In this document: positions 1,783 to 49,344 of the stretch, piece by piece | How the letters are laid out: each line of letters begins with the position of its first letter | Numbering within the stretch: the stretch's first letter is position 1 | Origin: a virus | IMG/VR virus record: IMGVR_UViG_3300042691_026762 | Coordinates: 1-49,344 of that record | Direction: 5' to 3' (one strand) | Length of the DNA: 49,344 nucleotides | Made by a program: the position numbers and the translations under genes | The notes under the pieces: generated by a model | Database searches by the model: none | What the model saw: the letters and a program-made list of their open reading frames with translations, nothing else | What the model was told of the DNA's origin: nothing

Positions 1783-2637
1783 ATGAGAATCAAACATTCA
1801 AAATACAAAAATACAGGTATATTGTTTGAATTATTAGTTAGACAAATAGCATCAGACACTATATCTAACAAAGATTCAGCTGCTATTGACTTAGTTAAAA
1901 GATATTTTAACAAAACTGAATTAGCTAAAGAATATAAAATATATCAAATCTTAACTAATTCTAATACTCTTAGTGAGGCTAAAGCAGAAACTTTTATTAA
2001 TACTACTATTAATATATCCTCACGTTTAAACAAATCTGTTTTACGTAAAGAAAAATATAATTTAATTAAAGAAATTCGTGAAAATTACAATATTGATGAG
2101 TTTTTTAAAGCCAAAATAAATAACTATTCTCAATATGCCGCTATCTATAATTTAATAGAGGCTAATAATTCATCAGAATTTATTGAACCCAATCAAATTA
2201 TAGATAATAAAGTAACCTTACTTGAGCATATTACTCGTAAAGAAATAAATAAAGATGGTGTTAAAGATCGTATTCTTGAAGAATATGCTAAAATGGATAA
2301 AGGTACTCGCTTATTAGCGTATCGAGTATTACTAGAAAAATTCAATAAGAAATACTCTACATTAGACAATAGACAAAAAAATGTATTAAAAGAATACATT
2401 AATAATATATCTAACACTACTGGGTTAAAAGAGTTTGTTAATAGTCAATATACAGCCTTACGTAACGAATTAAATGAATTATCAAACAACGTTACTGATA
2501 AAACAATCAAGATTAAATTAACTGAGGTAATTACTTTATTACAGCCATTAGGGAAAACCCAAAACGTAAAAGATGAAAATTTAATTTCATTATTACAGTA
2601 TTATCAATTAACAAACGAATTAAAATCAGTTAAATAA
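1783..2637 (+). CDS. Unknown 284-residue head-module protein
   Basis: I do not recognise a function. The protein is mostly helical by composition, rich in Lys, Asn, Ile and Leu, with no signal peptide or membrane segment. It opens with HSKYKNTGILFELLVRQ, a kind of start I associate from memory with unknown proteins near the portal gene of distant T4 relatives. The central region is charged and Asn-rich; the C-terminal 100 residues look like a helical bundle. It lies where T4 has the small prohead core genes 67 and 68 but is much longer than either, and it could be a prohead core or packaging-related protein. Its stop overlaps the next start (TAATGA), suggesting translational coupling. Confidence 0.8.
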   Translation: MRIKHSKYKNTGILFELLVRQIASDTISNKDSAAIDLVKRYFNKTELAKEYKIYQILTNSNTLSEAKAETFINTTINISSRLNKSVLRKEKYNLIKEIRENYNIDEFFKAKINNYSQYAAIYNLIEANNSSEFIEPNQIIDNKVTLLEHITRKEINKDGVKDRILEEYAKMDKGTRLLAYRVLLEKFNKKYSTLDNRQKNVLKEYINNISNTTGLKEFVNSQYTALRNELNELSNNVTDKTIKIKLTEVITLLQPLGKTQNVKDENLISLLQYYQLTNELKSVK

Positions 2638-3644
2638 TGAAGGAGTATATTAAAAAACTTATACAAGAAGAATTAGCAAATAAGTTAAAGGAAACTACAC
2701 ATCCTTGGTATACATCTCTTAACGGGTATTATAAAGGTGACACAAAAGCTGGATCAGGCCCAAGACATACTGGTAATGTAATTGATTATCTAAAACCAGG
2801 TACTTTAGTATATAATGCTAAGGGTGAGTCTAAAAGAATTAAAGATACAACTAGTGATCATATTATGTTTACTGATGGTACTAAAGATTACTTCATGAAC
2901 TGGTTTCCTGAGAAACCTGATTTATATGAAGAATCAGCAACGGGCGCTATAGGCGTTGGAGCTGGTCCTATCATGACTCCTAAAGCTTTTGCTCCTAAAG
3001 GACAAAAAACAAATAAAGCAACTAAAACAGCAATGAAACAAGGATTTAAAAAAACATCAGGTATGCCTAAAAACTCTAAAATGTTAGATTATAAAGAACT
3101 TTGGAAAGGTAAAAAATCAGCTATGAATGAAATGGAAAACACATCTGAATCTATAAAAGTTGGTGATAAACTTAAACATAAATTAACTGGTGCTGAAATG
3201 GTTGTAACTAAAGTAAATGGAAATAATCTTACTACTAAAATTACTTTAGTTGGTAATTTAAAAACAGGTAAAGTTGGAGATATTAATAAAACTAATGCTT
3301 TACTAGTAGGTAAAACATATGATTTAATTAAAGAAAATAAATCTTTAGAAGAAACAATAAATAATATAGTTAAAGAAGAATTACTTAACGAAGTATCATA
3401 TAATAAATTTAAAAACGAAGTAAAATATCGTACTAAAGCAGAAATGCTTCATAAAAGTATTCGTGAAGTAAAACGTAAATTAGCTGAAGTAGACCAATTA
3501 ATTGAATATACTACTCGTATAAAACAAGAATTAAGCGAAAATGAGGATGGAAGTAATTATTGGAAACGCAGCTTAAAAGCTATAAACGAAATAAGCGAAA
3601 TATCAAATAAAATTAGTAACAAAATTAAATCAATCTATCAGTAA
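2637..3644 (+). CDS. Unknown 335-residue protein with protease-site-like leader
   Basis: No family recognised. The N-terminus MKEYIKKLIQEELANKLKE is a short charged amphipathic helix ending in an L-x-E motif, like the capsid-targeting leaders seen elsewhere in this window. Residues about 15-100 form a compact globular-looking segment with HPWYTSLNGYYKGD and a WFPEKPDLYEES motif; a basic linker (about 115-155) follows, then a small beta-type segment starting SIKVGDKLKHKLTG (about 175-235) and a C-terminal Lys/Glu-rich coiled coil. Several L/I-x-E sites (for example VKEELLNE) could be cut by the prohead protease. It overlaps both neighbours by one base. A prohead-core role is plausible from position only. 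Confidence 0.78.
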   Translation: MKEYIKKLIQEELANKLKETTHPWYTSLNGYYKGDTKAGSGPRHTGNVIDYLKPGTLVYNAKGESKRIKDTTSDHIMFTDGTKDYFMNWFPEKPDLYEESATGAIGVGAGPIMTPKAFAPKGQKTNKATKTAMKQGFKKTSGMPKNSKMLDYKELWKGKKSAMNEMENTSESIKVGDKLKHKLTGAEMVVTKVNGNNLTTKITLVGNLKTGKVGDINKTNALLVGKTYDLIKENKSLEETINNIVKEELLNEVSYNKFKNEVKYRTKAEMLHKSIREVKRKLAEVDQLIEYTTRIKQELSENEDGSNYWKRSLKAINEISEISNKISNKIKSIYQ

Positions 3645-3775
3645 TGGCTAAGGCAAAAGCATCACTTAAAGAATCACATAAAATTACTTTTGGTACTCGT
3701 AAAAAAGGTAAAGCAGCCAAAAGACGTAATAAACACGATCACTCAGAAACTAACTACAGAGGGCAAGGACGATAA
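3644..3775 (+). CDS. Small basic protein (43 aa) with a protease-type cleavage motif
   Basis: A 43-codon gene starting at ATG 3644 inside the previous stop and ending in TAA whose last A begins the next ATG (3775), so it is tightly coupled on both sides. The product begins MAKAKASLKESHKITFG and continues with a run of Lys and Arg residues, ending in YRGQGR. Residues 8-11 (LKE then S) match the L/I-x-E/small-residue signature of T4 prohead protease sites; cleavage there would release about 33 very basic residues. T4 packages small peptides derived from core proteins, so a DNA-neutralising head peptide is an attractive role, but this is inference. It could instead be a scaffold-binding peptide. 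Confidence 0.75.
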   Translation: MAKAKASLKESHKITFGTRKKGKAAKRRNKHDHSETNYRGQGR

Positions 3776-4161
3776 TGAATATATCATACACTCCTGAAAA
3801 AATAGATGAATTTGTAACATTTGCTGAAAAAGAAAAATCATCCGCTATAAATGTATTTAAAGCAATACGTTCTAAAATACATGACATTAGTATACAGAAT
3901 GCTATTGAATCTCCGGATGAATTAAATTCTTTATTAGATAAAATAAAACAAACTCGATCATTTCTTGATACTAAAGCTCAAAAGTATTATAATGTAGTAA
4001 AAATGTATGATATAACTGATTACCCGGATAACGTAAGTAAATTAGATAACCTAACTACTGATTTAGATAACATAAATGATGATCTATATTTATTAGAAGA
4101 TACTTTAGACAACATTGTAGAAGCAGTAAAAAAGTTAAAAGGCCAGTATTTTACTAAATAA
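3775..4161 (+). CDS. Unknown 128-residue coiled-coil protein
   Basis: No family recognised. The whole protein is polar and helical; two long stretches with heptad-like spacing of Leu and Ile (about residues 45-75 and 90-125) suggest a coiled-coil hairpin. There is no Cys, no signal peptide and no membrane segment. It sits between the small basic protein and the large putative core protein, upstream of the prohead protease, and starts on the last base of the preceding stop codon. An assembly or core role is suggested by the neighbourhood only. Confidence 0.78.
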   Translation: MNISYTPEKIDEFVTFAEKEKSSAINVFKAIRSKIHDISIQNAIESPDELNSLLDKIKQTRSFLDTKAQKYYNVVKMYDITDYPDNVSKLDNLTTDLDNINDDLYLLEDTLDNIVEAVKKLKGQYFTK

Positions 4162-4168
4162 AACATAA

Positions 4169-4176
4169 TATTTATA
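4169..4176 (+). promoter_or_regulatory. Candidate late promoter motif ATATTTAT, 3 bases from ATG
   Basis: TATTTATA preceded by A, only 3 bases before ATG 4180. If it works as a -10 element, transcription would begin at or just beyond the start codon, implying a leaderless message or a different role for the motif. Confidence 0.5.
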
Positions 4177-4179
4177 CAC

Positions 4180-5483: not shown

Positions 5484-6104
5484 ATGAGTAAGCAATTATT
5501 AGTAGATCATATTCCCTTTCATATAGCTAAGCTACAGCCTATTACTGAAGGAAAAGACAGTAAATTGGGTGATGGGTTGATGCGTGTTAAAGGTAAATTA
5601 CAGGAAGCTGGTGTTAAAAATGGCAACGGTCGTGTGTATCCTATAAATGTATTAAAAGAGCAAATAGATAAATACATAGAAGGACCGTTAAAAACTAGAA
5701 CATCAACCGGTGAGTTAGATCACCCTGAATCATCTATTATTAACTTAAGTAACGTATCACATCTCATTACTAAGATCTGGTGGGAAGGTAATAATGTAAT
5801 GGGTGAATTAACATTACTTAATACTCCATCTGGTAAAATTGCTCAAGAAATTATTAAAGCTAATATTCCTTTAGGTATATCATCTAGAGGTATGGGTAGT
5901 GTAAAACAGATAGGTGAAACAGTGGAAGTACAAGACGACTTTGAATTACTTTGCTGGGACTTAGTTTCAGTACCGTCAACACCCAATGCTTATATGACAT
6001 TGTCAGAAGGAAAACAATATAAATCAAGTAAAGATTATAGTAAAGTAAACGAATTAATAACAGAGATTATATGTACTCAAACCGGAGTATGTGCTCTATG
6101 TTAA
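5484..6104 (+). CDS. 21: Prohead core maturation protease, T4 gp21-like
   Basis: Serine protease (T4 gp21 family, MEROPS S80) assembled inside the prohead; it cuts scaffold, capsid and internal proteins after L/I-x-E and then degrades itself. The 206-residue product matches the T4 length. The likely catalytic His is His80 in GELDHPESS, the nucleophile a Ser in GISSRGMGS (residues 131-139), and a following acidic residue, perhaps Asp159 in CWDLVSVPSTPNAYM, completes the site; the last assignment is by analogy. LSEG at 173-176 is a good self-cleavage site. The substrate pool is visible in the same window: LNE, LLE and LKE motifs in the capsid protein and many small proteins. The gene is followed by a terminator. 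Confidence 0.94.
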   Translation: MSKQLLVDHIPFHIAKLQPITEGKDSKLGDGLMRVKGKLQEAGVKNGNGRVYPINVLKEQIDKYIEGPLKTRTSTGELDHPESSIINLSNVSHLITKIWWEGNNVMGELTLLNTPSGKIAQEIIKANIPLGISSRGMGSVKQIGETVEVQDDFELLCWDLVSVPSTPNAYMTLSEGKQYKSSKDYSKVNELITEIICTQTGVCALC

Positions 6105-6314: not shown

Positions 6315-7352
6315 ATGTCAAACAAAAAATTATTCCAAGAGGCTATCGTTGATGCTAAAGCTATCCGCGAAGCAGCGTTGTTAAACGCAAAAGAAGCCTT
6401 AGAAGAAGCCTTAACTCCAAGTATCCAAAACATGTTAGTTGCAAAATTAAATGAAATGGATATGGATGATGAAAAGGTAGAAGAAGGTATGTATCCAGAA
6501 GATACAACAGATGAAATTCAAGATCGTTACAGAGAAACAGGTGCTGCTCTTGAAGAAGAAGAATTCGATTTATCTGCTATTTTAGCTGAACTAGAAGCCG
6601 AAGAAATGGAAGAAGGTTTAAACGAAGCTAAAAAAGAAGAAAAAGAGGAAGAAGAAGGCGAAGAAGAAACTGAAGAAGAAGAAACTGAAGAAGAAGAAAC
6701 TGAAGAAGAAGAAGTAGACGTTAAAGATATGTCTATTGAAGATCTTAAAGACTTAATCAAAGACATCGTTAGCCAAGAATTAGAAGCCGAAGAAATGGAA
6801 ACACCTGCTGATGAAGAAGCTGAAATGGACATGGATATGGACATGGGTACTGAAATGGGCGGTGAAGAAATGGAAATGGCTGATGATGAAGAAATCGATC
6901 TTGAAGAACTTTTAGCTGAATTAGATTCAATGGATAAAACTGATGAATTAGAAGAAGCTAAGAAAAAAGTTATGAAAAAAGAGAAAGAAGAAGAGAAAAA
7001 AGAAATGAAAGAAGCTATTAATGTAATTAATACACTTCGCAAAGAGTTAAATGAAGTTAATTTATTAAATGCTAAGTTACTTTATGTTAACAAAATTTTC
7101 AAATCTAAAAACTTATCTGAATCTCAAAAATTAAACGTGATTGCTTCATTCGATAAAGCAACTACACCTAAAGAAGCTAAGATGGTTTACGAATCATTAG
7201 AAGCTACTTTAAATACGGTTAAAAAGAAATCACCTATTAAAGAATCTTTAGGATTTGCTTCAAAAGCAGCAGGAATTGCTCCTAAGAAACAAATTGTAGA
7301 ATCAAATGATGTTATTTCACGTATGCAAAAATTAGCAAACATTATTAAGTAA
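6315..7352 (+). CDS. 22: Prohead scaffold protein, T4 gp22-like
   Basis: Main scaffold of the prohead core; it is digested by gp21 during maturation. Start chosen at ATG 6315 because AAGGAG lies just upstream, one of the best ribosome sites in the window; the frame is open upstream to 6141, but that would run through the terminator. The 345-residue protein is very acidic, with a short ETEEEE repeat (about residues 115-135) and an MDMDMDM run. The C-terminal third carries the gp22 signature: LNEVNLLNAKLLYVNKIFKS, then LSESQKLNVIASFDKATTPKEA. It ends RMQKLANIIK, resembling the RFQELAGINE leaders of two small proteins at 43923 and 44279. The gene lies directly before the capsid gene, as in T4. 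Confidence 0.93.
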   Translation: MSNKKLFQEAIVDAKAIREAALLNAKEALEEALTPSIQNMLVAKLNEMDMDDEKVEEGMYPEDTTDEIQDRYRETGAALEEEEFDLSAILAELEAEEMEEGLNEAKKEEKEEEEGEEETEEEETEEEETEEEEVDVKDMSIEDLKDLIKDIVSQELEAEEMETPADEEAEMDMDMDMGTEMGGEEMEMADDEEIDLEELLAELDSMDKTDELEEAKKKVMKKEKEEEKKEMKEAINVINTLRKELNEVNLLNAKLLYVNKIFKSKNLSESQKLNVIASFDKATTPKEAKMVYESLEATLNTVKKKSPIKESLGFASKAAGIAPKKQIVESNDVISRMQKLANIIK

Positions 7353-7377: not shown

Positions 7378-8982
7378 ATGAACATTCAACAATTATTAGA
7401 ATCATCAAACCAATTTAAATCGGTTCAAGATGACGCAAAACGCCTTCAGAGTAAATGGGTAAAATCAGGCCTATTAGAAGGTTTAAAAGATGATAACAGC
7501 CGTAACACAATGGCTATGTTATTAGAAAATCAAGCTAAGCAATTAGTAGTAGAAGCTTCTTCTACAGGTACTCAAGCAGCTGGTGCTGGTGCATACAATG
7601 GTGAGAGCTGGAATGGTGTAGCCCTTCCATTAGTTCGCCGTGTATTCGGTGAGATTGCTGCAAAAGAATTCGTTAGTGTACAACCAATGAACTTACCTTC
7701 AGGTCTAGTATTCTATCTTGATTTCAAATATGGTACTGGTGTAAGACCATTTACTAACGGTGGATCTTTATATGGTGCTAACGCAACTACAAACGTAACT
7801 GACATTGCTTCAGCTTCATTATATGGTGCTGGTAAATTCGGTTATTCAATCAACCAATTCTCAGCTTCTATCGCTGCTACAACTAGTTCAACTAGCTGGG
7901 CTACATTTAACTTAGATGCTGATTACTCATCATCATTCCCTACTTACAAAGTAATTAACGTTCCTCTACCTACTGCTGCTGACCAAAATGGTGTACGTGC
8001 GTTTGTATTCACTTCAGGTTCAATTACCGCTGCTGATATTTTACAAACATATACTACTGTAGCTAACAACACAGCTTCATTCGTAGTAACTGGTTCATTA
8101 GTAACTAACGTAACTGGTGCTAGCGCTGGTACTGTAACATTATTCTATAATGTACAACCTACAGCTACTTCACGTGGTGATTTCGAAGATGCTAGTGGTG
8201 CTGGTTACCCTAACGCTCAAAGTGCAACATCAATCGCTATTCCAGAAATTAACGTTCAGTTAAAATCTGAAGCAATCGTTGCTAAAACACGTAAATTAAA
8301 AGCACAATGGACACCTGAATTCGCTCAAGACTTAAACGCTTACCACTCAGTAGACGCTGAAGCTGAATTAACTGGTATCTTATCACAATACATTTCAATG
8401 GAAATTGATCTTGAATTGTTAGATATGTTAATCGAGAATGCTTTCACAACTGAATACTGGTCAGCAGTTAATAACCAAGCAGTAGGTGCTTCAGGCGTAA
8501 CTAACAACGCTTTAGGTTACTACAACACTCAAGGTGGTTGGTTCCAAACTTTAGGTACAAAATTACAAAAAGTATCTAACAAAATTCACCAATTAACATT
8601 ACGTGGTGGCGCTAACTTCTTAGTTACTTCACCTACAGTAGCAACTATCCTTGAATCAATCCCTGGATTTGCTTCAGATGGCGATGGCGAGAAAATGGAA
8701 TACAACTTCGGTATCCAAAAGATCGGTAGCTTAAACAGCCGTTACAAAGTATACAAAAACCCATACATGACTGAAAACGTAATCTTAATGGGTTACAAAG
8801 GTGCTCAGTTCTTAGAGTGTGGTGCTGTATTCGCTCCATATGTTCCTCTAATCATGACTCCATTATTGTACGATCCAAATACCTTCACTCCACGTAAAGG
8901 TTTAATGACTCGTTACGCTAAGAAAATGATTCGTCCCGACTACTACGGAAAAGTATACGTAGCTGGTTTGAACACTATCTAA
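7378..8982 (+). CDS. 23: Major capsid protein precursor, T4 gp23-like
   Basis: HK97-fold subunit of the head shell; 534 residues against 521 in T4. The N-terminus MNIQQLLESSNQF is a short leader with an LLE/S site, followed by SKWVKSGLLEGL, close to the LNKWKPLLEG segment of T4 gp23. Maturation cleavage is likely after Glu59 in QLVVEASS, near T4's Glu65 site. VSVQPMNLPSGLVFYLDFKYG at about residues 99-119 aligns with the T4 VQPMNSPTGQVFALRAVYG block. The middle (about 130-280) is Thr/Ser/Ala-rich and may be an insertion domain on the capsid surface. There is no Shine-Dalgarno sequence; the leader is A-rich (ACAAAAAATG), unusual for a phage's most expressed gene and typical of Bacteroidota-style initiation. 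A strong terminator follows. Confidence 0.97.
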   Translation: MNIQQLLESSNQFKSVQDDAKRLQSKWVKSGLLEGLKDDNSRNTMAMLLENQAKQLVVEASSTGTQAAGAGAYNGESWNGVALPLVRRVFGEIAAKEFVSVQPMNLPSGLVFYLDFKYGTGVRPFTNGGSLYGANATTNVTDIASASLYGAGKFGYSINQFSASIAATTSSTSWATFNLDADYSSSFPTYKVINVPLPTAADQNGVRAFVFTSGSITAADILQTYTTVANNTASFVVTGSLVTNVTGASAGTVTLFYNVQPTATSRGDFEDASGAGYPNAQSATSIAIPEINVQLKSEAIVAKTRKLKAQWTPEFAQDLNAYHSVDAEAELTGILSQYISMEIDLELLDMLIENAFTTEYWSAVNNQAVGASGVTNNALGYYNTQGGWFQTLGTKLQKVSNKIHQLTLRGGANFLVTSPTVATILESIPGFASDGDGEKMEYNFGIQKIGSLNSRYKVYKNPYMTENVILMGYKGAQFLECGAVFAPYVPLIMTPLLYDPNTFTPRKGLMTRYAKKMIRPDYYGKVYVAGLNTI

Positions 8983-10931: not shown

Positions 10932-11270
10932 ATGATTAAACTACAGAATCTATTATTAGAATCACTTTCTATTTACGAAATAGAAGTAATGATTAAAGTA
11001 GAAAGACAAGCTAATAAGGTAGACATATACAATGAAATTAGAGGTATAGATGGAGTAGTTGTTGTTAAAGTAGAACAAAATAACTATTTAAATACTTTAA
11101 TTACTGACCAAACAGAATACTCTTTACTTCATATGAAATTTATTGTAAGAAAAGAACCAAAAGATGAGTTAGCTGAAATTAAAAGAAGAGCATTAGTAAC
11201 TCAAAAAATACCAGGCTTATTAAAATTTATACCTAGATATAAAACTTTAGAAAAAATAACTACGATATAA
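10932..11270 (+). CDS. Small protein with capsid-targeting-type leader and ACT-like fold
   Basis: Unknown function. The N-terminus MIKLQNLLLESLS is one of the M-I-K-L leaders described in the findings, with LLE followed by S as a potential prohead protease site; cutting there leaves about 100 residues. The rest (YEIEVMIKVERQ, NEIRGIDGVVVVKVEQ, SLLHMKFIVRKEP) reads as a beta-alpha-beta-beta pattern resembling a ferredoxin or ACT-like domain. It lies between gp13 and gp14 and overlaps gp14's start by one base, so it is co-translated with the neck genes. It could be a packaged internal protein or a connector accessory protein. Confidence 0.8.
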   Translation: MIKLQNLLLESLSIYEIEVMIKVERQANKVDIYNEIRGIDGVVVVKVEQNNYLNTLITDQTEYSLLHMKFIVRKEPKDELAEIKRRALVTQKIPGLLKFIPRYKTLEKITTI

Positions 11271-11817: not shown

Positions 11818-12177
11818 ATGATTAAATTAATAGACATATTAAATGAAGCAGAAATTCCTGTAACCGGAGCAAGTGGTGAAAAAGTAGCATCTTTTAAACC
11901 TAAAAAAGATGGTGAGGCTTTTGAAAGAGGATATAAAAGTATAAAAACTTCTATAGACCCGGAAACAGGTACCTTTACACAAGAATTTGAAGCTTTACCT
12001 AAATTTGATGAAATAAGAAGAAATCTTTTAAAATATAGAAGAGAAGTCCAAGCATTTAAATTTTCAACTAATGAAGATGTAGCTAAAGTAGCTAAAGATG
12101 CGAATGCTACTCTATATAAAGCTGCTCAACTAGTATTAGCTTTAGATAAAATGTTAGAATTACAAAGACAAAAATAA
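11818..12177 (+). CDS. Small protein with capsid-targeting-type leader (119 aa)
   Basis: Unknown function. Start chosen at ATG 11818: the frame is open further upstream, but that would overlap gp14 by 70 bases, and the 11818 start yields the leader MIKLIDILNEAEIP, nearly identical to the leader of the gene at 34699. LNE followed by A is a good prohead protease site. The mature part has a Gly/Lys-rich linker, then a helical C-terminal half (KYRREVQAFKFSTNEDVAKV and ALDKMLELQRQK). Its own ATATTTAT motif lies 3 bases upstream, so it looks like a self-contained cassette placed between gp14 and gp15. The next gene starts 2 bases after its stop. Confidence 0.82.
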   Translation: MIKLIDILNEAEIPVTGASGEKVASFKPKKDGEAFERGYKSIKTSIDPETGTFTQEFEALPKFDEIRRNLLKYRREVQAFKFSTNEDVAKVAKDANATLYKAAQLVLALDKMLELQRQK

Positions 12178-12179
12178 TA

Positions 12180-13442
12180 ATGGCTAAATCTCTTAAACCT
12201 ATACCTAAAAATGCAGCTGAAATTAGTCAAGAACAAGTTACTCCTTATTTAAAAAATCAAGGAAAACCTGTTAGTGATACTGTTTTTTCTAAAAATAGAG
12301 GTAAAGATATATCATTTAAGGGAGATACTGTTAAAGATGTAAGTATAGGAATAGAAGATTTAGATTATGCTGTGTTATACTATTTTGAAAATGTTATAAA
12401 ACCTAGTGTAATTCAAAATGGACAACAAATAACTGTTCCCGTAATTTATGGTTCTCCTGAAAGATGGAAATCAGTTCAAGCCGATGGTTTTTATCGTGAT
12501 GCTAACGGTAAAGGATTAGCTCCTTTAATTATGTTTAAACGTGAAAGTGTTGAAAAAAATAGAAGTCTAGGAAATAAATTAGATGGCAACAGAGCCCATT
12601 TATATCAGGTTATAGGTACAAAATATAATATAAGAAATGCATATGATAGATTTTCAGTTGTAAATAACAGAATACCTTCAGAACAATATTATATAAGTAC
12701 TGTTCCTGACTATGTTACTTTAACCTATTCGTGTGTTATATTTACTGACTATGTTGAACAAAATAATAAGTTAGTAGAAGCTATTAATTTTGCTTCAGAT
12801 TCATATTGGGGAGATCTAAATAGGTGGAAGTTTAAAGCAAGAATAGACTCATTTACTACAACTACTTTATTAGAACAAGGAGAAGACAGAGCAGCTCGCT
12901 CTACATTTAATCTTATTTTAAATGGATATATAATTCCTAATACGGTAAATAAAGATTTAGCAGTAGCTCGTAGCAAATTTTACACAACATCACAGGTAGT
13001 ATTTAATTTAGAGGTAATAGATAGTGGTGGTACTATAACTAATATAGACGAAATGAAATTTGCAAATAAACCAGCAGCTAAAAACGCTACAGGAGCTACT
13101 TCATTTATAGGAGGAGGAATTAATATAACTAGTGTAATTGGAGCAGGTAATGATGACGTAGAGTACATAAATACTAATATTGCTAAAATAGCCAATAGCA
13201 TAACCATTCCTGATACAGCAATTTTTTATAGCTCATCTATATTGCAACCACCAGCAGGCTCAAGTTTACCTCCTACATCAGTAAATAATTTTGTATTTTA
13301 TATTAATGGCCAATACGTTCCTTCTTCTGCTATAACATTATCAGAAAGTGGAGGAAATGTAACAGCATTATTTAATACATCATCTATAGGATATTCATTA
13401 AGTTTAACAGACGAAATAACAGCAATAGGGAAATTCACATAA
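12180..13442 (+). CDS. 15: Tail completion / sheath terminator protein, T4 gp15-like
   Basis: Caps the tail top and joins it to the neck. The pattern of T4 gp15 is recognisable: QNGQQITVPVIYGSPERWK (about residues 79-97) parallels T4's DKFIRVPITYASKEHFM; APLIMFKRESVEKN parallels its LPRINLHLVDF; and FTTTTLLEQGEDRAARSTFNLILNGYIIP (about 222-250, quoted here in outline) parallels the C-terminal ARRRIEWSLTFEVNGWMYP region. At 420 residues it is longer than T4 gp15 (272); the extra C-terminal 150 residues are Asn/Gly/Ser-rich and resemble fibre sequence, perhaps a surface decoration. It overlaps the next gene by one base (TAATGG), marking entry into the adhesion module. Confidence 0.8.
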   Translation: MAKSLKPIPKNAAEISQEQVTPYLKNQGKPVSDTVFSKNRGKDISFKGDTVKDVSIGIEDLDYAVLYYFENVIKPSVIQNGQQITVPVIYGSPERWKSVQADGFYRDANGKGLAPLIMFKRESVEKNRSLGNKLDGNRAHLYQVIGTKYNIRNAYDRFSVVNNRIPSEQYYISTVPDYVTLTYSCVIFTDYVEQNNKLVEAINFASDSYWGDLNRWKFKARIDSFTTTTLLEQGEDRAARSTFNLILNGYIIPNTVNKDLAVARSKFYTTSQVVFNLEVIDSGGTITNIDEMKFANKPAAKNATGATSFIGGGINITSVIGAGNDDVEYINTNIAKIANSITIPDTAIFYSSSILQPPAGSSLPPTSVNNFVFYINGQYVPSSAITLSESGGNVTALFNTSSIGYSLSLTDEITAIGKFT

Positions 13443-15920: not shown

Positions 15921-18176
15921 ATGGCAATTGATAGAACAATAAAATCAAGTAGGCTCTTACAAAGTAGACGCTATACACAAGCATCATTATCAGATGCTCA
16001 AGAAGCATTTACCAGTGTATTAGATATAAACTCTAGAGAAGTATATGCTCAGGCAAGCCTAATACCTACATCTAGTTTACCCTTCTCAGGTTCAAGCCAA
16101 AGCGGCAGTATATATTCTGTTGGAGGACAAAACATATTAAGATATTGGTTTCAACATCCATTAACACCATCAAACGTTGTTAGTGGTTCAGTAGTTGATG
16201 CCTGGTTCTTTATTGATCCATCAGGATCAGCGGTTACTCCTCAGATCATACAAACAGGTCAACAAAATAATTTTGTATCAAACAAATACGCTTCACCATC
16301 ATTAACAAACGCAGATGCTCAAGATAACCCTCCAGGTTACAACATTGTAGTTTTAATCGACAATGTAAAACAAAATCCAGCTTCATATCAGTTTGATTAT
16401 AAAAATGGTGTTTTACAATTTGTTACTGCTGCTCCACTTCCAACAGCTGTAGTTAGAGTAACAGCCTATCAATATGTTGGTCAAACAGTTGATACTGCAT
16501 TAACCAACTTAAGTGCCTCTATTTCAGGAGTTAGCGGTTCATTAAGTAATTTAAGTAGTGATAAAATTGCTACAGGTGCTGTTACCGCTTCAGTTGCTAC
16601 AGGTTCAAATACATTTACTATTACAAATGGTGGTACTTCATTATTTAAAATAAAAAATAATGGTGCTATAGAGCATGGACCTTCAGTATTAGCTGAAGGA
16701 GTTTATTCATATGCTGCTGGTGATTCTACTAAAGCAATTGGGGACTATTCACATGCTGAAGGTAATAGCACATACGCCGGTTTTAAAGGATATAATTCTG
16801 TTGATATAGGTTCGACAACCCCAGGTGATATTTACTTAAATGCAGGTTATGGTGATGTTTCAAGTCAATTTTCTAGTGGTTATATAGTATTAGATGATAC
16901 TAATTACAACCAAGCCTACCTCACTACTAAACTAGAAATAGCAAATGTTCAGTTTGATGGTACTAATACAATTATAACATTAGTTAATACAAGTATCACA
17001 GGAACTGGAGCTATAATAGGTGTTTTTAATAATCCAACACCAACTGGAGCAGACCAAATAGCAGGAAACACTTCACATGCTGAAGGTTTTAATACTCAAG
17101 CCTTAGGAAATTATTCACATGCTGAAGGTGATACTACTAAAGCAATAGGAAGTTATTCACATGCAGAAGGTAATGGTACTCAAGCAACAGGATACGCTTC
17201 ACATGCTGAAGGCACTAGTACTCAAGCATTAGGAGATTATTCACACGCTGAAGGTGAAAGTACAATTGCCTCTGGATACGCATCACATGCAGAAGGTCTT
17301 AATACTCAAGCAATAGGAAATTATTCACATGCTGAAGGTTCTGATACTCAAGCCTTAGGAAATTATTCACATGCTGAAGGTGAAAATACAACAGCATCTG
17401 GATACGCATCACATGCTGAAGGTGTAGGTACAATTGCATCCGGTTCTGGACAAACAGTAATGGGTAAATACAATACCCAAAACAATGATACTTCATTAGT
17501 AATAATAGGTAATGGTATTGATGATAGTACTAGAAGTGATTTAGTATTATTTAATTCAACAGACGTTGCATTTAACGTACCAGTATCTGCCTCAGTATTT
17601 TCAGGTTCATTTGTAGGTAATGGTGCTGGATTAACAGATGTACCTGCAAGTGCTATTTCAGGATTAAATTTATCTCAAATTGCAACAGGTTCAGTATCAG
17701 CATCTGTAAATGTAGATTCAAATGCTTTTACAATTATAAGCGCATCTAGTACATTACTTAATGTAGCAAATTCTGGATTAGTTACAGTATCAAATTTAAC
17801 AGTAAATGATAACTTAGTTGTAAACGGTACCGCTTCATTTATTAATACAGAAAACTTATCTGTTAAAGATAGATTCATATTAATTAATAGTGGTTCTTCT
17901 ACATTAGCAGATTCAGGATGGGTTACCCAATACAACGCAGCCGGTTCAGGTTCAGCATTTTATTTAGATGCAGATACAACAGGAACATATGGTCGTTTTG
18001 CAGTAGCATTTGATGTTGTAGGTAATGAAAGTATTGTAACCGCTAACGAGTATGTAGTTACCGCTCGTCAAGCATCAGGAGCACCCCCAGCAACACCAAC
18101 ATGGGGTGGTGCAACCAACGGCTTCGGTAATATTTACGTAAACAGTGATAACGGTGATATCTTTATCTATTCTTAA
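15921..18176 (+). CDS. Fibre with YadA-like SHAEG repeats (751 aa)
   Basis: Probable trimeric receptor-binding fibre. An N-terminal globular part (about 1-200; opening MAIDRTIKSSRLLQSRRYTQ, ending VVRVTAYQYVGQTVDTAL) likely attaches it to the virion. Residues about 275-510 carry ten copies of a 14-residue repeat of the form (Y/A)-S-H-A-E-G-x-x-T-x-A-x-G-x, the left-handed beta-roll repeat of YadA-type adhesin heads; nine are contiguous and one is separated by a roughly 100-residue insertion. After the roll come QTVMGKYNTQNND, GNGIDD and GSFVGNGAGLTDVP neck-like motifs and a C-terminal domain (LSVKDRFILINSGSS to NSDNGDIFIYS) of a kind seen in phage fibres. No enzyme motif. Confidence 0.9.
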   Translation: MAIDRTIKSSRLLQSRRYTQASLSDAQEAFTSVLDINSREVYAQASLIPTSSLPFSGSSQSGSIYSVGGQNILRYWFQHPLTPSNVVSGSVVDAWFFIDPSGSAVTPQIIQTGQQNNFVSNKYASPSLTNADAQDNPPGYNIVVLIDNVKQNPASYQFDYKNGVLQFVTAAPLPTAVVRVTAYQYVGQTVDTALTNLSASISGVSGSLSNLSSDKIATGAVTASVATGSNTFTITNGGTSLFKIKNNGAIEHGPSVLAEGVYSYAAGDSTKAIGDYSHAEGNSTYAGFKGYNSVDIGSTTPGDIYLNAGYGDVSSQFSSGYIVLDDTNYNQAYLTTKLEIANVQFDGTNTIITLVNTSITGTGAIIGVFNNPTPTGADQIAGNTSHAEGFNTQALGNYSHAEGDTTKAIGSYSHAEGNGTQATGYASHAEGTSTQALGDYSHAEGESTIASGYASHAEGLNTQAIGNYSHAEGSDTQALGNYSHAEGENTTASGYASHAEGVGTIASGSGQTVMGKYNTQNNDTSLVIIGNGIDDSTRSDLVLFNSTDVAFNVPVSASVFSGSFVGNGAGLTDVPASAISGLNLSQIATGSVSASVNVDSNAFTIISASSTLLNVANSGLVTVSNLTVNDNLVVNGTASFINTENLSVKDRFILINSGSSTLADSGWVTQYNAAGSGSAFYLDADTTGTYGRFAVAFDVVGNESIVTANEYVVTARQASGAPPATPTWGGATNGFGNIYVNSDNGDIFIYS
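17071..17449 (+). repeat. Nine tandem 42-bp in-frame repeats (SHAEG)
   Basis: Nine contiguous 42-base units, each containing TCACATGCTGAAGGT or a close variant and encoding 14 residues; a tenth copy lies at about 16745. Units alternate between Y-S and A-S starts, suggesting past two-unit duplications. Copy number could vary by slippage or recombination. Confidence 0.93.
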
Positions 18177-30360: not shown

Positions 30361-30885
30361 ATGATAAAACTATCCCAAATATTGAAAGAAATATCATCAT
30401 CTCCTGAATACCTCACTTTAAATACAAATGATAAAAACTTATACGAAACATATATATTATTAGGAGAATTATTAAATCCGGATAATTCATATCCATATGA
30501 AGAAAAGATAAAAGGGTTATGGGAATATAAGGATATAATGGATAATATATATTTTGTTCGATTAACATATCAACCAACAACTCAACCTCATTTTGAGTTA
30601 AAAACAGGATATTATAATGAACATGGTAAACCTCAATACGACCCGCCAGTACCTGATAATTCAACTAGTAAAGATTGGGATAAACGAAGTGATACTGTTG
30701 CTAAAATATATCGTGATGAAATAATACCTATGTTTATAGAGCAAAACATAAGTAATATATTAATCATAAAACCACTAGAAATTAAAAGATATCAATTTAG
30801 TGTAAGATTAATAGATAAATTTACCCCTAACAACATTCAGATAAAATATAATAAACCTCAATCTATTGTTTTAACAAAACCATAA
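30361..30885 (+). CDS. Leader-bearing small protein (174 aa) between tube and hub genes
   Basis: Unknown function. N-terminus MIKLSQILKEISSSPEY is an M-I-K-L leader with LKE at residues 8-10. The mature part contains LNTNDKNLYETYILLGELLN, FVRLTYQPTTQPHFELKTGY and a C-terminal segment RYQFSVRLIDKFTPNNIQIK, an alpha/beta mix with no recognised family. The gene is isolated between two terminators (30275 and 30932), so it looks like an independent cassette; no ATATTTAT motif is seen upstream. It could be an ejected internal protein. Confidence 0.8.
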   Translation: MIKLSQILKEISSSPEYLTLNTNDKNLYETYILLGELLNPDNSYPYEEKIKGLWEYKDIMDNIYFVRLTYQPTTQPHFELKTGYYNEHGKPQYDPPVPDNSTSKDWDKRSDTVAKIYRDEIIPMFIEQNISNILIIKPLEIKRYQFSVRLIDKFTPNNIQIKYNKPQSIVLTKP

Positions 30886-34035: not shown

Positions 34036-34659
34036 ATGATAAGATTAATAGGTTTATTAAAAGAAAATATAAATTATTTAAAACCTCAAAATAGTGAAGA
34101 AAAATTATTACCTCTTCCTAAAAAAGCAAAAGATAATGAAGGAAATACTGTAACACTAATAGGTCAAGAATCTAAATTTATATATTGGGATGATAATGGA
34201 AATAGATGGACTTCAGATGGTGAGAATCTATATAGTAAATATAAGATGAATAGATATGATGCAATAGAATTTAAGAAAAAACCTAAACTAGAACCGGAAG
34301 CTGTAGACAAAGCTTGGGAAAAAGCATATGATGAACATACAGACTCATTAAAAATATTTGTTAACGATATATTAGAAGTTCCATATGATGTTAATTTAGG
34401 ATGGAGAGATGGCGTCGATGAAGATATTATTTTTATCACATCTAAAATATATGGTACTAATCCAACTACTTTTACTACTTACCATAAAGAAGTAGATGGA
34501 GATCAGATAGATTATAAATATGAATCATATAAACCAATAAATGCCACCGCAGATGAAATTGAAGATGCTTTAACTAAAAGAAAATTAAAAAAATTAGGTT
34601 TGGAAGGAACGATTAAATTGGTTGATCTATTAAAAGAATACACTAAATTAGTTTCCTAG
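34036..34659 (+). CDS. Leader-bearing protein (207 aa) inserted after the tape measure
   Basis: Unknown function. Leader MIRLIGLLKENINYLKP with LKE/N. The middle has LIGQESKFIYWDDNGNRWTS, an RDAIEF-type stretch and FVNDILEVPYDVNLGWRDGV, an alpha/beta globular impression. Its end, IKLVDLLKEYTKLVS, repeats the leader pattern, as if a second leader or its copy sits at the C-terminus. The DNA around its start (AATTAAAAATTATGATAA) is almost identical to that of the next gene at 34699. Both lie between direct repeats derived from the tape measure end, suggesting insertion as a cassette. Confidence 0.8.
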   Translation: MIRLIGLLKENINYLKPQNSEEKLLPLPKKAKDNEGNTVTLIGQESKFIYWDDNGNRWTSDGENLYSKYKMNRYDAIEFKKKPKLEPEAVDKAWEKAYDEHTDSLKIFVNDILEVPYDVNLGWRDGVDEDIIFITSKIYGTNPTTFTTYHKEVDGDQIDYKYESYKPINATADEIEDALTKRKLKKLGLEGTIKLVDLLKEYTKLVS

Positions 34660-34698: not shown

Positions 34699-35109
34699 AT
34701 GATAAAATTAATAGATTTATTAAATGAATCTCAATATTCTCAATTAGAATTAACACCAATGGGGGAATTACTTCTTAATTACCTCAACTCAGATGTTGAA
34801 TCTGATAAACCTGAAAATTATCATCTATCTTCAAGAGATGAACAAATATTAATGGATATGGGAATGTATGTTACTGATGGCTTATATACTGATAATAAAT
34901 TTACTAATTTAGATATATTTGCATTAGATATAGCATCTGGAGAATATCAAGATCCACAATTAGGTAGACAAAAAGTTTTAAATAAAATAAATACTGCTAT
35001 CAAAAAAGGATGGGTTAAAATAGTTCCTTATAAAGGTAATCCTTTTAAAGATAAAAATAACGATGATGATAATTCAATAGGTAGAGGTAGAGATTTTATA
35101 GGAGTATAA
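34699..35109 (+). CDS. Leader-bearing protein (136 aa)
   Basis: Unknown function. Leader MIKLIDLLNESQYSQLEL with LNE/S, nearly the same as the 11818 gene. The following part LTPMGELLLNYLNSDVES, SRDEQILMDMGMYVTDGLY and IASGEYQDPQLGRQKVLNKI is helical and acidic; the C-terminus (KGNPFKDKNNDDDNSIGRGR) is polar and probably flexible. It belongs to the inserted pair bounded by the duplicated tape measure end. After cleavage the mature part would be about 125 residues. Confidence 0.82.
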   Translation: MIKLIDLLNESQYSQLELTPMGELLLNYLNSDVESDKPENYHLSSRDEQILMDMGMYVTDGLYTDNKFTNLDIFALDIASGEYQDPQLGRQKVLNKINTAIKKGWVKIVPYKGNPFKDKNNDDDNSIGRGRDFIGV

Positions 35110-43922: not shown

Positions 43923-44282
43923 ATGAAATTAATCAAAGAAGCCAAACGATTCCAGGAATTGGCAGGTATAAATGAAGTAAAAATTGAGCCTGATATTCGT
44001 ATTAAAAGCTACGAAGACTTTGTAAAATTATTTAACAGAACCTTTTCTAAGTATGTAAAACCATTAACAATAGAAGATATAAAATCTGAACAATCAGAAA
44101 GAGAAGAAGGAGAAACATATATGCTTAGTCTAGATAAGATAGATATGGATATAGATGTTGATAAACTTGAAGATATATTTAATAAAACTTTTTCTAAGCA
44201 TAATATTGAATTAGCAGAAATAGAGGATGCTGGTGATTATTTTATATTTTATATAGAACCTATAAATTTTAAAATAACATGA
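43923..44282 (+). CDS. Leader-bearing protein A of a tandem pair (119 aa)
   Basis: Unknown function. The leader MKLIKEAKRFQELAGINEVK nearly equals that of the next gene and resembles the RMQKLANIIK end of the scaffold protein. INE at about residues 16-18 could be a protease site. The rest is acidic with two KLFNRTFSK / IFNKTFSK-like repeats (about residues 34-43 and 86-94), suggesting an internal duplication of a 50-residue unit. Stop and next start overlap (ATGA), so both are translated together. Confidence 0.8.
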   Translation: MKLIKEAKRFQELAGINEVKIEPDIRIKSYEDFVKLFNRTFSKYVKPLTIEDIKSEQSEREEGETYMLSLDKIDMDIDVDKLEDIFNKTFSKHNIELAEIEDAGDYFIFYIEPINFKIT

Positions 44283-44656
44283 CAGAATTAATTAAAGAAG
44301 CCAAACGACTCCAGGAATTAGCAGGAATAAACGAGATAAAGATTCAATCTAATGATAATAGAAAAGCATTAGGGACAGTGTTTTATGAAAATCCTAATCC
44401 TGAAGAAGCAGAGAAATATGGTTATTTATATGTTTGGGACGATGAATTTGTAGAGCAATTAGCTAAGGATTTAGGCTTTGAAGACTACGAAGATGCAGCA
44501 AGTGAATTTACGGCATATTATGACCCAGGTACTAAAGAAAATATACATTTTCTAGAGAAGGTTTTAGGACTTAAAAATTTGACTATAGATAAACTTACTG
44601 TAGAGATGTATAAACAAGCTATGTTACGTTCACTAAAAAAGATAAATATTCGTTAG
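44279..44656 (+). CDS. Leader-bearing protein B of a tandem pair (125 aa)
   Basis: Unknown function. Leader MTELIKEAKRLQELAGINEI matches protein A at protein and DNA level, but the body differs: GTVFYENPNPEEAEKYGYLY, VEQLAKDLGFEDYEDAASEF and ENIHFLEKVLGLKNLTIDK. So only the leader is shared, as expected for shuffled cassettes. It ends 54 bases before the gp32 gene, with an ATATTTAT motif between. Confidence 0.8.
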   Translation: MTELIKEAKRLQELAGINEIKIQSNDNRKALGTVFYENPNPEEAEKYGYLYVWDDEFVEQLAKDLGFEDYEDAASEFTAYYDPGTKENIHFLEKVLGLKNLTIDKLTVEMYKQAMLRSLKKINIR

Positions 44657-46647: not shown

Positions 46648-47659
46648 GTATGCTCAACTTTTAGCAAATATAAACAATAATCCTCGTAATGCTCAAGATT
46701 CAATTTTAATAATTGATGGTTTAAATACTTTCTTGAGAAGTTTTACAATGATAAACCACATAAATCCAGACGGAGCCCACATAGGTGGGCTCACTGGGTT
46801 TTTAAAATCATTGGGTTATGCTATTAAAACGATAGATCCTACTAAGGTAATTATCGTATTTGATGGAATAGGAGGTTCTAACAACAAACGTAACTTATAC
46901 CCTGAATATAAGGCTAATAGAAATAAAAGTCGTATGACTAATTATTCTATATTTAGTAGTAAGGAAGAAGAAACTGAAGCTATAACAAACCAGGTTAGTA
47001 GATTAATACAGTATCTTAAATGTTTACCTGTTACTATAATTTGTATAGATGGTATTGAGGCCGACGATGTTATTGGTTATCTCGCGGTAAAATTCGAGAA
47101 TTTCGCGCTAACTAAGGAAGTCACCATCATGTCTGCTGACAAAGATTTCTTACAATTAACAAGCGATAAAACACGAGTTTATTCGCCTATTAAAAAGAAA
47201 ATATACAAACCTGAAGATGTAAAGGCTGAATATGATATTAACCATTTGAATTTTATTAATTATAAAATATTAATGGGAGATACATCAGATAATCTACCAG
47301 GTGTACCTGGTTTGGGCCCTAAAAAGTTACTTAAATTATTTCCTATTTTAAATGAAAACAGAAAAGTTAGTTTACAGGAAATTATAGAATACTCAGCAAA
47401 CAGAGTTAATGAACATGCTTTATATTCATCTGTTGTAGAAAGATCTTATCAGTTAGATATAAATAGACAACTAATGGATTTACATACTGTTCCATTATCT
47501 GATGAAAATAAAAAAGAAATACAACAAAATTTTAATAACCAGTATTCATTAAATAAACATGTTTTTATGCAAATGTATTTGGCAGATCATTTAGGAGAAA
47601 GTATACCTAATGTATCAAATTGGCTTAATCAAGTTTTTGGAGGGTTAGAAAATTTTTAG
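46637..47659 (+). CDS. rnh: FEN-type 5'-3' nuclease (T4 RNase H-like)
   Basis: Metal-dependent 5' nuclease that removes RNA primers and flaps. Acidic metal ligands appear in order: Asp27 in LIIDGLNTFLRS, Asp76 in VIIVFDGIGG, the cluster IEADDVIGYL (141-144), SADKDFLQL (168-170), and MGDTSDNLPGVPGLGPKKLL (about 213-232), which includes the helix-three-turn-helix. KRNLYPEYKANR matches the helical arch. It has 340 residues, slightly longer than T4 RNase H (305). Because the polymerase at 42164 lacks a nuclease domain, this enzyme could complete the Okazaki machinery. It overlaps uvsX by 11 bases. Confidence 0.9.
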   Translation: MKNKYAQLLANINNNPRNAQDSILIIDGLNTFLRSFTMINHINPDGAHIGGLTGFLKSLGYAIKTIDPTKVIIVFDGIGGSNNKRNLYPEYKANRNKSRMTNYSIFSSKEEETEAITNQVSRLIQYLKCLPVTIICIDGIEADDVIGYLAVKFENFALTKEVTIMSADKDFLQLTSDKTRVYSPIKKKIYKPEDVKAEYDINHLNFINYKILMGDTSDNLPGVPGLGPKKLLKLFPILNENRKVSLQEIIEYSANRVNEHALYSSVVERSYQLDINRQLMDLHTVPLSDENKKEIQQNFNNQYSLNKHVFMQMYLADHLGESIPNVSNWLNQVFGGLENF

Positions 47660-47676
47660 TAAATTTATAAAAGGTT

Positions 47677-49059
47677 ATGGCAACATTAAACAAATTAAAT
47701 AATTACGGAAACGTATTTCAAGTTAAAGTATTAGGAGCATTATTAACACAACGAGATTTTTTACTTAACATATCAGATTCATTAGATAGTGAGTATTTTG
47801 AGAATCCCTCTCATAAATGGGTTGTTGATTATGTTATTAAATATTTTGAACAATATCATACTTATCCAACTGCTGAAACATTATCAATTGAGATAAAAAA
47901 GATAGATAATGAAGTATTAAGAATATCACTAGTTGAAGCAATTCGTGAAGCTTATAGATTAGCAGATGCTAGTGATTTGGAATGGGTTGAGAGAGAATTT
48001 TCTGATTTCTGTCAAAACCAACAGATGAAAAAAGCAATTATGACATCTGTTGATTTATTGAATCTAGGTGATTATGATGGTATTAAACAACTAATTAATC
48101 GTGCTTTAAAAGCAGGTGAAGATAAAAATATAGGACATCTTTATGAAGCCGATGTTGAGTCTCGATACAGAGATGATGATAGAAGAGCAATACCATTCCC
48201 TTGGCCTGTGTTTAACGACTTAACACAAGGTGGTTACGGTAAAGGTGATTTAGTACTATTATTCGGTAATCCAGGTGGTGGTAAGTCTTGGGGTGTTATA
48301 GCAATGGGAGCTTATGCTGCTGCTTTAGGATATAACGTAGTACATTACACACTAGAATTATCTGAAGGGTATGTAGGAAAAAGATATGATGCTGTATTCT
48401 CAGGTATTGATGTAGATAAATTAAAAGATCATCGTGATAAAGTTCAAGAAGCTGTAGAAAGAGTAAAAGGTAAAATAGTGATCAAAGAATATTCTCCTAA
48501 ACGAGCATCATTGGATACTATTGAATCCCATATACAACAATTAAAACATCAAAATGAATTTGAACCTGATTTAATTATTATTGACTATATTGATTTATTA
48601 CGCACTAAAGGAAGAAAAGAACGTAAAGATGAAATTGATGATGTTTATACTGAAGTAAAAGGATTAGCTAAAGAATTAGGAATACCTATTGTATCTCCTT
48701 CACAAGCTAATAGAACAGGTGCCGATAAACCTATTCTACAAGGAGAAAACGCAGCTGGTTCATATGATAAAATTATGATTGGTGATATTATTATATCTCT
48801 AGCACGAGGTAGAAAAGATAAAGTTAACGGAACGGGTAATTGGCATTTTATCAAAAATAGATACGGAGCAGACGGATTAACTTTTGGTTCTAAGATCAAT
48901 ACGTCTACCGGATATATAGATATATACGATCAACCGTTAGATGACGATGATACACCGGAACTAAAAGGTAAAAACAAAGCAGTAAATTCGTTCTCAGAAG
49001 TGGGGACAGAAGATAAACAAATTTTACGAAGCAAATTCCTTTCTTACAAGGAAGAATGA
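47677..49059 (+). CDS. 41: Replicative DNA helicase, T4 gp41-like (DnaB family)
   Basis: Hexameric 5'-3' helicase moving on the lagging strand. N-terminal helical domain (1-150) then the RecA core: Walker A GNPGGGKS at 197-204, VVHYTLELSEGYVGKRYDA for the L-S-E motif (about 221-239), Walker B DLIIIDYIDLL with Asp303, and IPIVSPSQANRTGADKPIL (about 335-355) with the arginine-rich DnaB motif. The end (WHFIKNRYGADGLTFGSKIN) carries the K-N-R motif. 460 residues against 475 in T4. Upstream leader GTAAATTTATAAAAGG has a weak AATTTATA variant and a possible AAAGG ribosome site. Confidence 0.95.
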   Translation: MATLNKLNNYGNVFQVKVLGALLTQRDFLLNISDSLDSEYFENPSHKWVVDYVIKYFEQYHTYPTAETLSIEIKKIDNEVLRISLVEAIREAYRLADASDLEWVEREFSDFCQNQQMKKAIMTSVDLLNLGDYDGIKQLINRALKAGEDKNIGHLYEADVESRYRDDDRRAIPFPWPVFNDLTQGGYGKGDLVLLFGNPGGGKSWGVIAMGAYAAALGYNVVHYTLELSEGYVGKRYDAVFSGIDVDKLKDHRDKVQEAVERVKGKIVIKEYSPKRASLDTIESHIQQLKHQNEFEPDLIIIDYIDLLRTKGRKERKDEIDDVYTEVKGLAKELGIPIVSPSQANRTGADKPILQGENAAGSYDKIMIGDIIISLARGRKDKVNGTGNWHFIKNRYGADGLTFGSKINTSTGYIDIYDQPLDDDDTPELKGKNKAVNSFSEVGTEDKQILRSKFLSYKEE

Positions 49060-49067
49060 TATTTATA
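49060..49067 (+). promoter_or_regulatory. Candidate promoter motif ATATTTAT of the last gene
   Basis: TATTTATA preceded by A, right after the gp41 stop and 20 bases before ATG 49088. Confidence 0.54.
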
Positions 49068-49087
49068 AACCCAAAAACAACAACTAC

Positions 49088-49344
49088 ATGAAATCATATA
49101 AATTAAAAGATATAATTTTAGAAGAAATAAAACAGAATAAAGGTAATGGTGATTTTTCATGGGTTACTTTAAGGGAAAATGAGTTATTAACTGAATTTAA
49201 TTATAATATAGAAGATACATATCCTATTACTAATGAACTTCCTTTTAATATTGAATTTAAAGATGAAAAGGGAAGATTAAACATTACTAAAGGAAAATTA
49301 AATAATAACTACATTGAAATAAAGTTATATTGGGTAGATAATTA
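49088..49344 (+). CDS. Leader-bearing protein, 3' end beyond the window
   Basis: Frame open from ATG 49088 to the right edge (85 codons visible). The leader MKSYKLKDIILEEIKQNKG resembles T4 internal protein leaders (MKTYQEFIAEA-type) with ILE at the site position. The visible body has SWVTLRENELLTEFNYNIED and FNIEFKDEKGRLNITKGKLN, a small alpha/beta or beta protein. It carries its own ATATTTAT motif. Unknown function; the length is not known. Confidence 0.75.
   Translation, partial: MKSYKLKDIILEEIKQNKGNGDFSWVTLRENELLTEFNYNIEDTYPITNELPFNIEFKDEKGRLNITKGKLNNNYIEIKLYWVDN

Follow-up and report, generated by a model that had tools for sequence, protein, structure and literature searches.

Short N-terminal leaders common to otherwise unrelated proteins were analyzed in a 49,344-base stretch of viral DNA from IMG/VR (record IMGVR_UViG_3300042691_026762; the whole stretch is called the window), a fragment of a T4-like myophage with 32% G+C, and in its relatives. 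Judged by sequence, the leaders fall into several classes, and one of these, class B, is a copy of the C-terminal tail of the predicted prohead scaffold protein. Most probably (we assign a probability of about 0.8), the leaders are detachable capsid-loading tags that function like the capsid-targeting sequence (CTS) of phage T4, with class B imitating the scaffold tail. This reading is based on (i) the specificity of the leaders for N-termini, (ii) the scaffold-tail copy, (iii) a cut-type site, (iv) the exchange of leaders between protein bodies, and (v) co-occurrence with a gp21-type prohead protease gene. We infer the presence of the tagged proteins in the virion and their docking, cutting, packaging, and injection. 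An initial annotation of the window had proposed a short N-terminal peptide on unrelated proteins, which is borne out in both the window and the relatives; the division into classes and the resemblance of one class to the scaffold tail had been overlooked.

Leaders encoded in the window

The strict motif M-I-[KR]-L-x-x-[LI]-L-x-E, with hydrophobic residues at positions 4, 7, and 8 and glutamate at position 10, starts five of the 52 genes of the window. These class A leaders, all on the plus strand, are present where the initial annotation had placed them: MIKLQNLLLE (10932..10961) in gene 10932-11270, encoding a conserved neck-operon protein with a ferredoxin-like body; MIKLIDILNE (11818..11847) in gene 11818-12177, conserved in relatives; MIKLSQILKE (30361..30390) in gene 30361-30885, whose product has a body without convincing homologs; and MIRLIGLLKE (34036..34065) and MIKLIDLLNE (34699..34728) in genes 34036-34659 and 34699-35109, respectively, both with bodies lacking homologs in the sample. 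The motif occurs neither in 2,000 shuffles of residues 2-30 nor at 13,067 internal positions. A wider regular expression suggested in the initial annotation matches six genes, the same five and gene 2637, where internal positions predict 0.18 matches and shuffles 0.33, and a loose pattern that includes gene 49088 yields seven matches against 0.9-1.3 expected. Random proteins of the same composition, represented by shuffles and internal positions, are far below the observed counts, and the motif is missing from those window genes that were read as encoding portal, sheath, tube, tape measure, hub, UvsX-like, helicase, and FEN proteins.

The starts initially listed as variants of this motif do exist; those of genes 43923, 44279, and 49088 and of the capsid gene do not match the regular expression proposed along with them. 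The first two are real leaders of a separate class, B: MKLIKEAKRFQELAGINE (43923..43976, plus strand, gene 43923-44282), which resembles the scaffold C-terminus, and MTELIKEAKRLQELAGINE (44279..44335, plus strand, gene 44279-44656). Both were recognized by a regular expression, and together they form MxLIKEAKR(F/L)QELAGINE. The leader MKEYIKKLIQEELANKLKE (2637..2693, plus strand) of the head-operon gene 2637-3644 belongs to the looser class D type. At 49088..49123 (plus strand), MKSYKLKDIILE is a class A-like leader with a short extension, caught by the loosest pattern only; this start, MKSY-KLKDIILE, fits class A only with three extra residues.

Another class A copy, IKLVDLLKE (TIKLVDLLKEYTKLVS up to the stop codon; 34612..34638, plus strand), lies 6 residues from the C-terminus of the gene 34036 product. 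It scores 25.9 bits, compared with a median of 26.1 for real leaders, and the next-best internal class A match in the 1.6 Mb scanned has 16.9 bits. Processing at both ends was reported for T4 Alt (excerpts of PMC9026906).

Leader classes in related phages

The isolate closest to the window phage is Flavobacterium phage immuto, with 61% identity of the major capsid proteins (MCPs); the identity is 50% for Microcystis phage Mel-JY01 and 39% for Rhodothermus phage RM378. The motif search over the window phage and its relatives revealed N-terminal enrichment in both. The class consensus sequences are MIKLxxLLxE for class A, NExKRMQxLAGIxxE for class B, and NFDLKKFLVENKLTxNSxLLxE for class C; class D is looser. 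The class regular expressions were written after the leaders had been seen, and the class A sample consensus is no evidence for positions 1-4 and 7-10, because these are imposed by the search pattern.

The locus set combined the window, immuto, and Mel-JY01 with 79 IMG/VR loci surrounding related MCP genes and comprised 1,635 proteins in 472 body clusters; near-identical loci were kept in the counts. Genes outside annotated records were called by a simple purpose-written caller. Clusters were built with BLAST (threshold 1e-3) and contain some bodies truncated at contig ends; one cluster, of 390 members, is probably an artificial merger due to low-complexity or leader sequence in common. In this set, class A was observed in 58 proteins from 18 body clusters (2.8 matches expected), class B in 26 proteins from 19 clusters (0.5 expected), class C in 8 proteins from four clusters (0.03 expected), and a narrow class D pattern in five proteins from three clusters (0.3 expected).

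Pattern scans of IMG/VR, which sampled up to 120 stretches each and thus give lower bounds, yielded at least 363 distinct proteins, at least 313 of them with the motif no more than 20 residues from the first start. At least 298 N-terminally tagged bodies of 40 amino acids or longer fall into 173 BLAST clusters. The class A pattern written backwards matched 13 stretches in the whole collection, compared with at least 120 for the forward pattern. In 18 large records there were 47 class A matches and one match to the reversed pattern; seven of these records had been chosen via the class A pattern, and the sole reversed match is in a record chosen via the reversed one.

Strict matrices for classes A, B, and C identify seven leaders in immuto, ten in G017, nine in G031, seven in G044, and two in Mel-JY01, all complete or large genomes; at an internal control position they match none of 1,161 proteins, and in the T4 genome none of 263 called genes. 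When the class A and C matrices were used to look for a source in head proteins, the internal matches had low scores, except for the C-terminal copy in the 34036 protein and the second tag of L077. The MCP N-termini, which class A resembles, are a candidate source. A tblastn search with 25-residue class B and C leaders (E up to 10) against 50,697 phage records matched only four immuto phage records. Among 84,980 species genomes of a cellular collection, class C was found on two contigs only: a phage contig, from a genome bin whose contig 55 carries a gp21-type gene, and a chance match inside a membrane protein.

Class B leaders copy the tail of the predicted scaffold

When the class B pattern matches 40 or more residues from the protein start, 31 of the 33 matches are the last residues of the protein, typically ..ISEVSDAVKRMQKLAGII(K) before the stop codon. 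In the MCP loci, the gene of the class-B-tailed protein lies directly upstream of the MCP gene, the place of the scaffold gene gp22 in T4. In the window, the tail is VESNDVISRMQKLANIIK (7296..7349, plus strand), the element copied by class B leaders.

The tail is described by the regular expression R-phi-x-x-L-A-[GNK], which matches the last 22 residues of all 76 predicted scaffolds (57 distinct tails). An initial, narrower version matched 24 of 79 upstream genes, and widening it after inspection of the tails gave 76 of 76; three of the 79 rows, in which the upstream gene is an MCP or MCP fragment, were excluded. The same expression matches two of 1,603 other C-termini, one of them the L021 scaffold (the MCP of that locus is truncated by the contig end), and one of 353,459 middle positions. 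Within 30 residues of the N-terminus, 37 other proteins have it (32 distinct sequences from 25 loci and 22 body clusters), with 0.1 expected.

A matrix built from 28 distinct scaffold-tail 9-mers only was meant to lessen the circularity of the regular expression. With the scaffolds, the L021 scaffold, and Mel-JY01 omitted, it matches 14 more sites among 378,218 positions, every one of them within the first 30 residues, and none in reversed proteins. Both class B leaders of the window are below its threshold and are caught by the regular expression alone.

The tail pattern also finds predicted scaffold tails in RM378 and Mel-JY01. In RM378, an uncharacterized gene upstream of the MCP gene (L463 27199-28047) is likely the scaffold, since its product ends in ..ERIKRLAGL; the gp22 tails of T4 and cyanophage Syn33 differ. 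RM378 and Syn33 each have one additional match, taken as chance, T4 has no match, and no class B leader was found in RM378, Syn33, T4, or Mel-JY01. A candidate co-variation of the scaffold tail and the class B leader per genome was rejected: W occurs in both in two of 37 pairs, none convincing.

Exchange of leaders and tandem tags

One example of leader exchange is a body family of about 170-195 residues that carries a class B leader in L015, class C in L353 and L330, class D in immuto (gene 102294), and A-like leaders in L146, L375, and L150. In its class B, C, and D members the bodies are 68-71% identical and the leader columns 25-42%; identity between the A-like and other compared bodies is 27-31%. 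Members of this cargo family (L015 1266-1850, L353 2655-3239, and immuto 102294-102869) have long hydrophobic stretches and may be membrane proteins.

The clearest exchanges join leader and body at the glutamate of the cut-type site (joint marked ^). Thus, MINEAKRFQKLANILTE^AVEVPTWL.. in G031 (class B) corresponds to ..KFLVENKLTYNSRLLAE^AVEVPEWL.. in L328 (class C), with 55% identity over 273 residues, and ..LAGIITE^AEQVDP.. in L019 (class B) to ..NSKILE^AEVAPQ.. (class C), with 59% over 180. Classes B and A are exchanged between L143 and L326 (58% over 179 residues) and between L115 and L128 (73% over 110), the joint in the latter pair being away from the site. The A/C and A/D pairs include misclassified ones, and only the class B exchanges and the B/C/D family are considered as evidence.

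Two class C tags in tandem, one N-terminal and one internal, were observed in L431 1235-2647 (minus strand), L465 2528-3784 (plus strand), and L077 159-1751 (plus strand). These open reading frames look as if two tagged cargoes had been fused into a polyprotein.

The cut-type site and the prohead protease

Sites of the form [LIVMF]xE were counted in the 12 residues after the part fixed by the search pattern. They follow 76 of 83 class B motifs, compared with 159 of 700 background windows (79 of 83 and 150 of 712, respectively, with the count starting at the last fixed residue). For class C, the figures are 108 of 109 motifs and 199 of 1,138 background windows; in both classes the sites are mostly at one or two positions. 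In class A the site lies within the motif definition, and a second site is not enriched (21 of 106 vs. 226 of 1,431).

A gp21-type gene was found, among the matches listed, in 35 of 48 leader-bearing records of at least 40 kb (immuto not counted) and in 13 of 14 of at least 100 kb. The controls are few: of 13 records, two shorter than 12 kb were omitted. Two of the remaining 11 have such a gene, one weakly, and among the six controls of at least 40 kb there is one weak match (E 9.9e-6).

Proteins that carry the leaders

Twenty proteins of relatives, picked for recognizable sequence, were compared with Pfam; 19 have a leader or leader-like start, which is loose in Mel-JY01 11243 and absent from immuto 107131. 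At or above the curated cut-off were two Zeta_toxin/AAA_33-type kinases, ART-PolyVal (E 2.1e-10), and HD (E 2.1e-6). CTP_transf_like was marginal at the cut-off in Mel-JY01 11243, NT5C fell just under it twice, and the rest were below. Thus, some bodies in relatives resemble host-takeover enzymes, such as ADP-ribosyltransferase and Zeta-like kinase. A tagged small protein of immuto (L085 3366-3806, immuto 103366-103806) has a kinase-like segment GEGDYGAVFLV and matches a phage protein kinase in PHROG with E 0.15 only.

In the window, the bodies of 34036, 34699, 43923, 44279, and 49088 have no homolog but themselves in the sampled loci, and that of 30361 has one weak match (E 2.8e-4). Genes 10932 and 11818 represent conserved families that keep their leaders in relatives, which were gathered by body and not by motif. 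In the 11818 family M1, K3, and L4 are invariant and E10 is conserved in at least 90% of members, with most relatives 25-46% identical overall; the 10932 family also keeps E10, which is invariant or nearly so. In an AlphaFold model of the 10932 protein, residues 1-10 have a mean pLDDT of 49 and residues 11-40 about 90-92, and the confident domain has a ferredoxin-like strand-helix order; a fold search gave generic ferredoxin-like folds, at best with E 3.4e-3.

A model of capsid loading and its alternatives

If the leaders are loading tags, the following scheme may be proposed. A protein produced during infection would bind, through its 10-25 N-terminal residues, to the core or shell of the prohead under assembly and would co-assemble inside it. 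The gp21-type protease would then cut after the [LIVMF]-x-E of the tag and release the body, which would stay with the DNA and be ejected into the next host. Several tag classes would serve the same job and be exchanged between bodies. Since class B imitates the scaffold C-terminal tail, it would probably dock where that tail docks.

We give slightly better than even odds to an extended version, in which the tags form a packaging code. Here, interchangeable N-terminal tags copied from the termini of prohead parts would direct effectors to the head, and the protease would strip them at the swap point. The source would be the scaffold tail for class B, perhaps the propeptides of the MCP or vertex protein for class A, and perhaps a core protein of the head operon for class D. 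The cargo would be a large and fast-changing effector set including ADP-ribosyltransferases, Zeta-like kinases, and nucleotidases; cargo would be acquired when an existing tag becomes fused to a further body, and in some open reading frames two tagged cargoes would stand in tandem.

Several observations weigh against the loading-tag reading. We found no virion proteomics. Thirteen of the 48 leader-bearing records have no protease match, including one of 125 kb, although these may be fragments. The scaffold label is a prediction from acidity, a weak gp22 match, and mainly position: the window protein has no match in PHROG, and its hhalign alignment to T4 and Syn33 gp22 covers 14 columns (E 0.0033, probability 9.6). 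Residue-level co-variation between scaffold tails and class B leaders of the same genome was not found. In L018, a non-scaffold protein of 160 amino acids (8234-8716, plus strand) carries the tail motif C-terminally (..AINEVKRMQLLAGLGSSN); of the 1,603 other C-termini, no further one has it except that of the one unrecognized scaffold. Only five of 52 multi-member body families have more than one strict leader class, and the largest exchange family (147 members) is probably a merger of the same origin as the 390-member cluster. None of ten window proteins reached the Pfam cut-off, and the tagged bodies of the window have only weak or sub-threshold matches in PHROG and Pfam. The known leaders of T4 score poorly with the class A profile (IPII/III -12 bits, IPI -12, Alt -3, gp24 +6). 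Finally, a tag alone does not identify an injected effector, because two of the motif genes are conserved in the neck operon.

In an alternative that we consider unlikely, there is no injected arsenal, and the tags are cleaved propeptides of ordinary structural proteins of the head, neck, or core. This alternative is consistent with the location of 10932 and 11818 in the neck operon, where their leaders are kept in relatives, and of 2637 in the head operon, with the start MAKINELLRES of T4 gp24, and with the LLES or LLxES starts of many MCPs of the group. Conservation would be expected of structural proteins, whereas the tagged bodies are very diverse, with the 173 clusters mentioned above; several of them are enzymes, and in immuto many tagged genes lie outside the head and tail genes. 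The products of genes 10932, 11818, and 2637 themselves may bear this tag as structural components of the head or neck. The arsenal of packaged and ejected proteins proposed in the initial annotation is supported in part: the comparison of relatives, including their effector-like bodies, favors it, but it is not a single arsenal, 10932 and 11818 being possibly structural and 2637 lying in the head operon.

It is very improbable that the leaders are intracellular localization signals unrelated to the capsid, directing proteins to the membrane, the replication site, or RNA polymerase. Short amphipathic N-terminal peptides are capable of such a role, but class B copies the scaffold tail, a protease-type site stands right after the motif, with leaders exchanged at it, and class C is confined in cellular genomes to one phage contig and one chance match. 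Chance, or an AT-rich composition producing starts rich in I, K, L, and E, as the G+C content of the window might suggest, is refuted: the observed counts far exceed those from shuffles, from internal positions, from reversed proteins, and with reversed DNA patterns.

Comparison with known systems

The first 10 residues of T4 IPIII are sufficient for its packaging; targeting depends on residues 4 and 7 and processing on residues 8 and 10 (excerpts of PMC9026906). The loading tags proposed here share with the CTS of IPI-IPIII and Alt a short N-terminal peptide on unrelated bodies, hydrophobic residues at positions 4, 7, and 8 with glutamate at position 10 of class A, that is, the positions that matter in IPIII, a gp21-type protease in the genome, and an ADP-ribosyltransferase among the bodies. 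They differ in having several leader classes, one of which copies the scaffold tail, compared with one in T4. Because the T4 leaders fail the class A matrix, we suggest that the tags work like the CTS and do not claim homology; the likeness to the T4 sequence noted initially thus stands as a functional or positional one. A small structural-region protein of Syn33 (L462 4409-4735) starts with MKSYNEFISES, much like MKTYQEFIAEA of T4 IPII/IPIII.

N-terminal propeptides are also cut by the prohead protease from packaged head and ejection proteins of the giant phages SPN3US and phiKZ, and among T4 propeptides that of gp23 has 65 residues, while those of gp24 and the internal proteins are short (both from excerpts of PMC5694885). 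Unlike the propeptides of SPN3US and phiKZ, the tags of the window group have 10-25 residues and are modular. In P22, the C-terminal helix-turn-helix of the scaffold is essential for assembly, and in engineered cargo-scaffold fusions the cargo enters the procapsid via the C-terminal part of the scaffold (excerpts of PMC9962691). Those fusions are laboratory constructs with a large scaffold part, whereas the class B copy is natural, short, and N-terminal and is followed by a protease-type site. Polyvalent proteins of phages and plasmids, for which packaging and injection have been predicted (excerpts of PMC5512222), share the ART-PolyVal domain with one tagged body (E 2.1e-10); they are long and multidomain, whereas the tagged proteins mostly have small bodies with short tags.

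Searches of open-access PMC papers showed no account of such leaders or of cargo that bears a copy of the scaffold tail. Capsid-targeting leaders as such are known from T4, and their interchangeable classes, one a scaffold-tail copy, are apparently new. How certain proteins localize to the T4 scaffolding core has been called still mysterious (excerpts of PMC9958956). A visible scaffold-tail copy used as a tag offers a concrete docking hypothesis. The tags also provide a sequence label for predicted virion-delivered effectors, picking at least 313 distinct proteins from environmental phages, among them likely host-takeover or counter-defense enzymes. Interchangeable tags could act as loading peptides for phage-based protein delivery.

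The head module of the window

The head genes of the window are ordered as in a T4-like module: portal, gp21-type protease, scaffold (assigned by position), and gp23-type MCP, followed by neck, tail, and replication genes (assigned by eye). All four are on the plus strand. The portal gene (52..1749) matches phrog_213 (E 6.6e-59), the gp21-type prohead protease gene (5484..6104) phrog_207 (E 8e-54), and the MCP gene (7378..8982) phrog_138 (E 3.4e-72). The MCP begins with MNIQQLLESS, a propeptide-like start. The predicted scaffold gene (6315..7352), gp22-like by its position between protease and MCP and encoding an acidic protein, lies in a reading frame open from 6141, the start at 6315 being inferred. 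In the tail region, the product of 15921-18176 contains many SHAEG-type repeats, which we take to resemble YadA-like head repeats.

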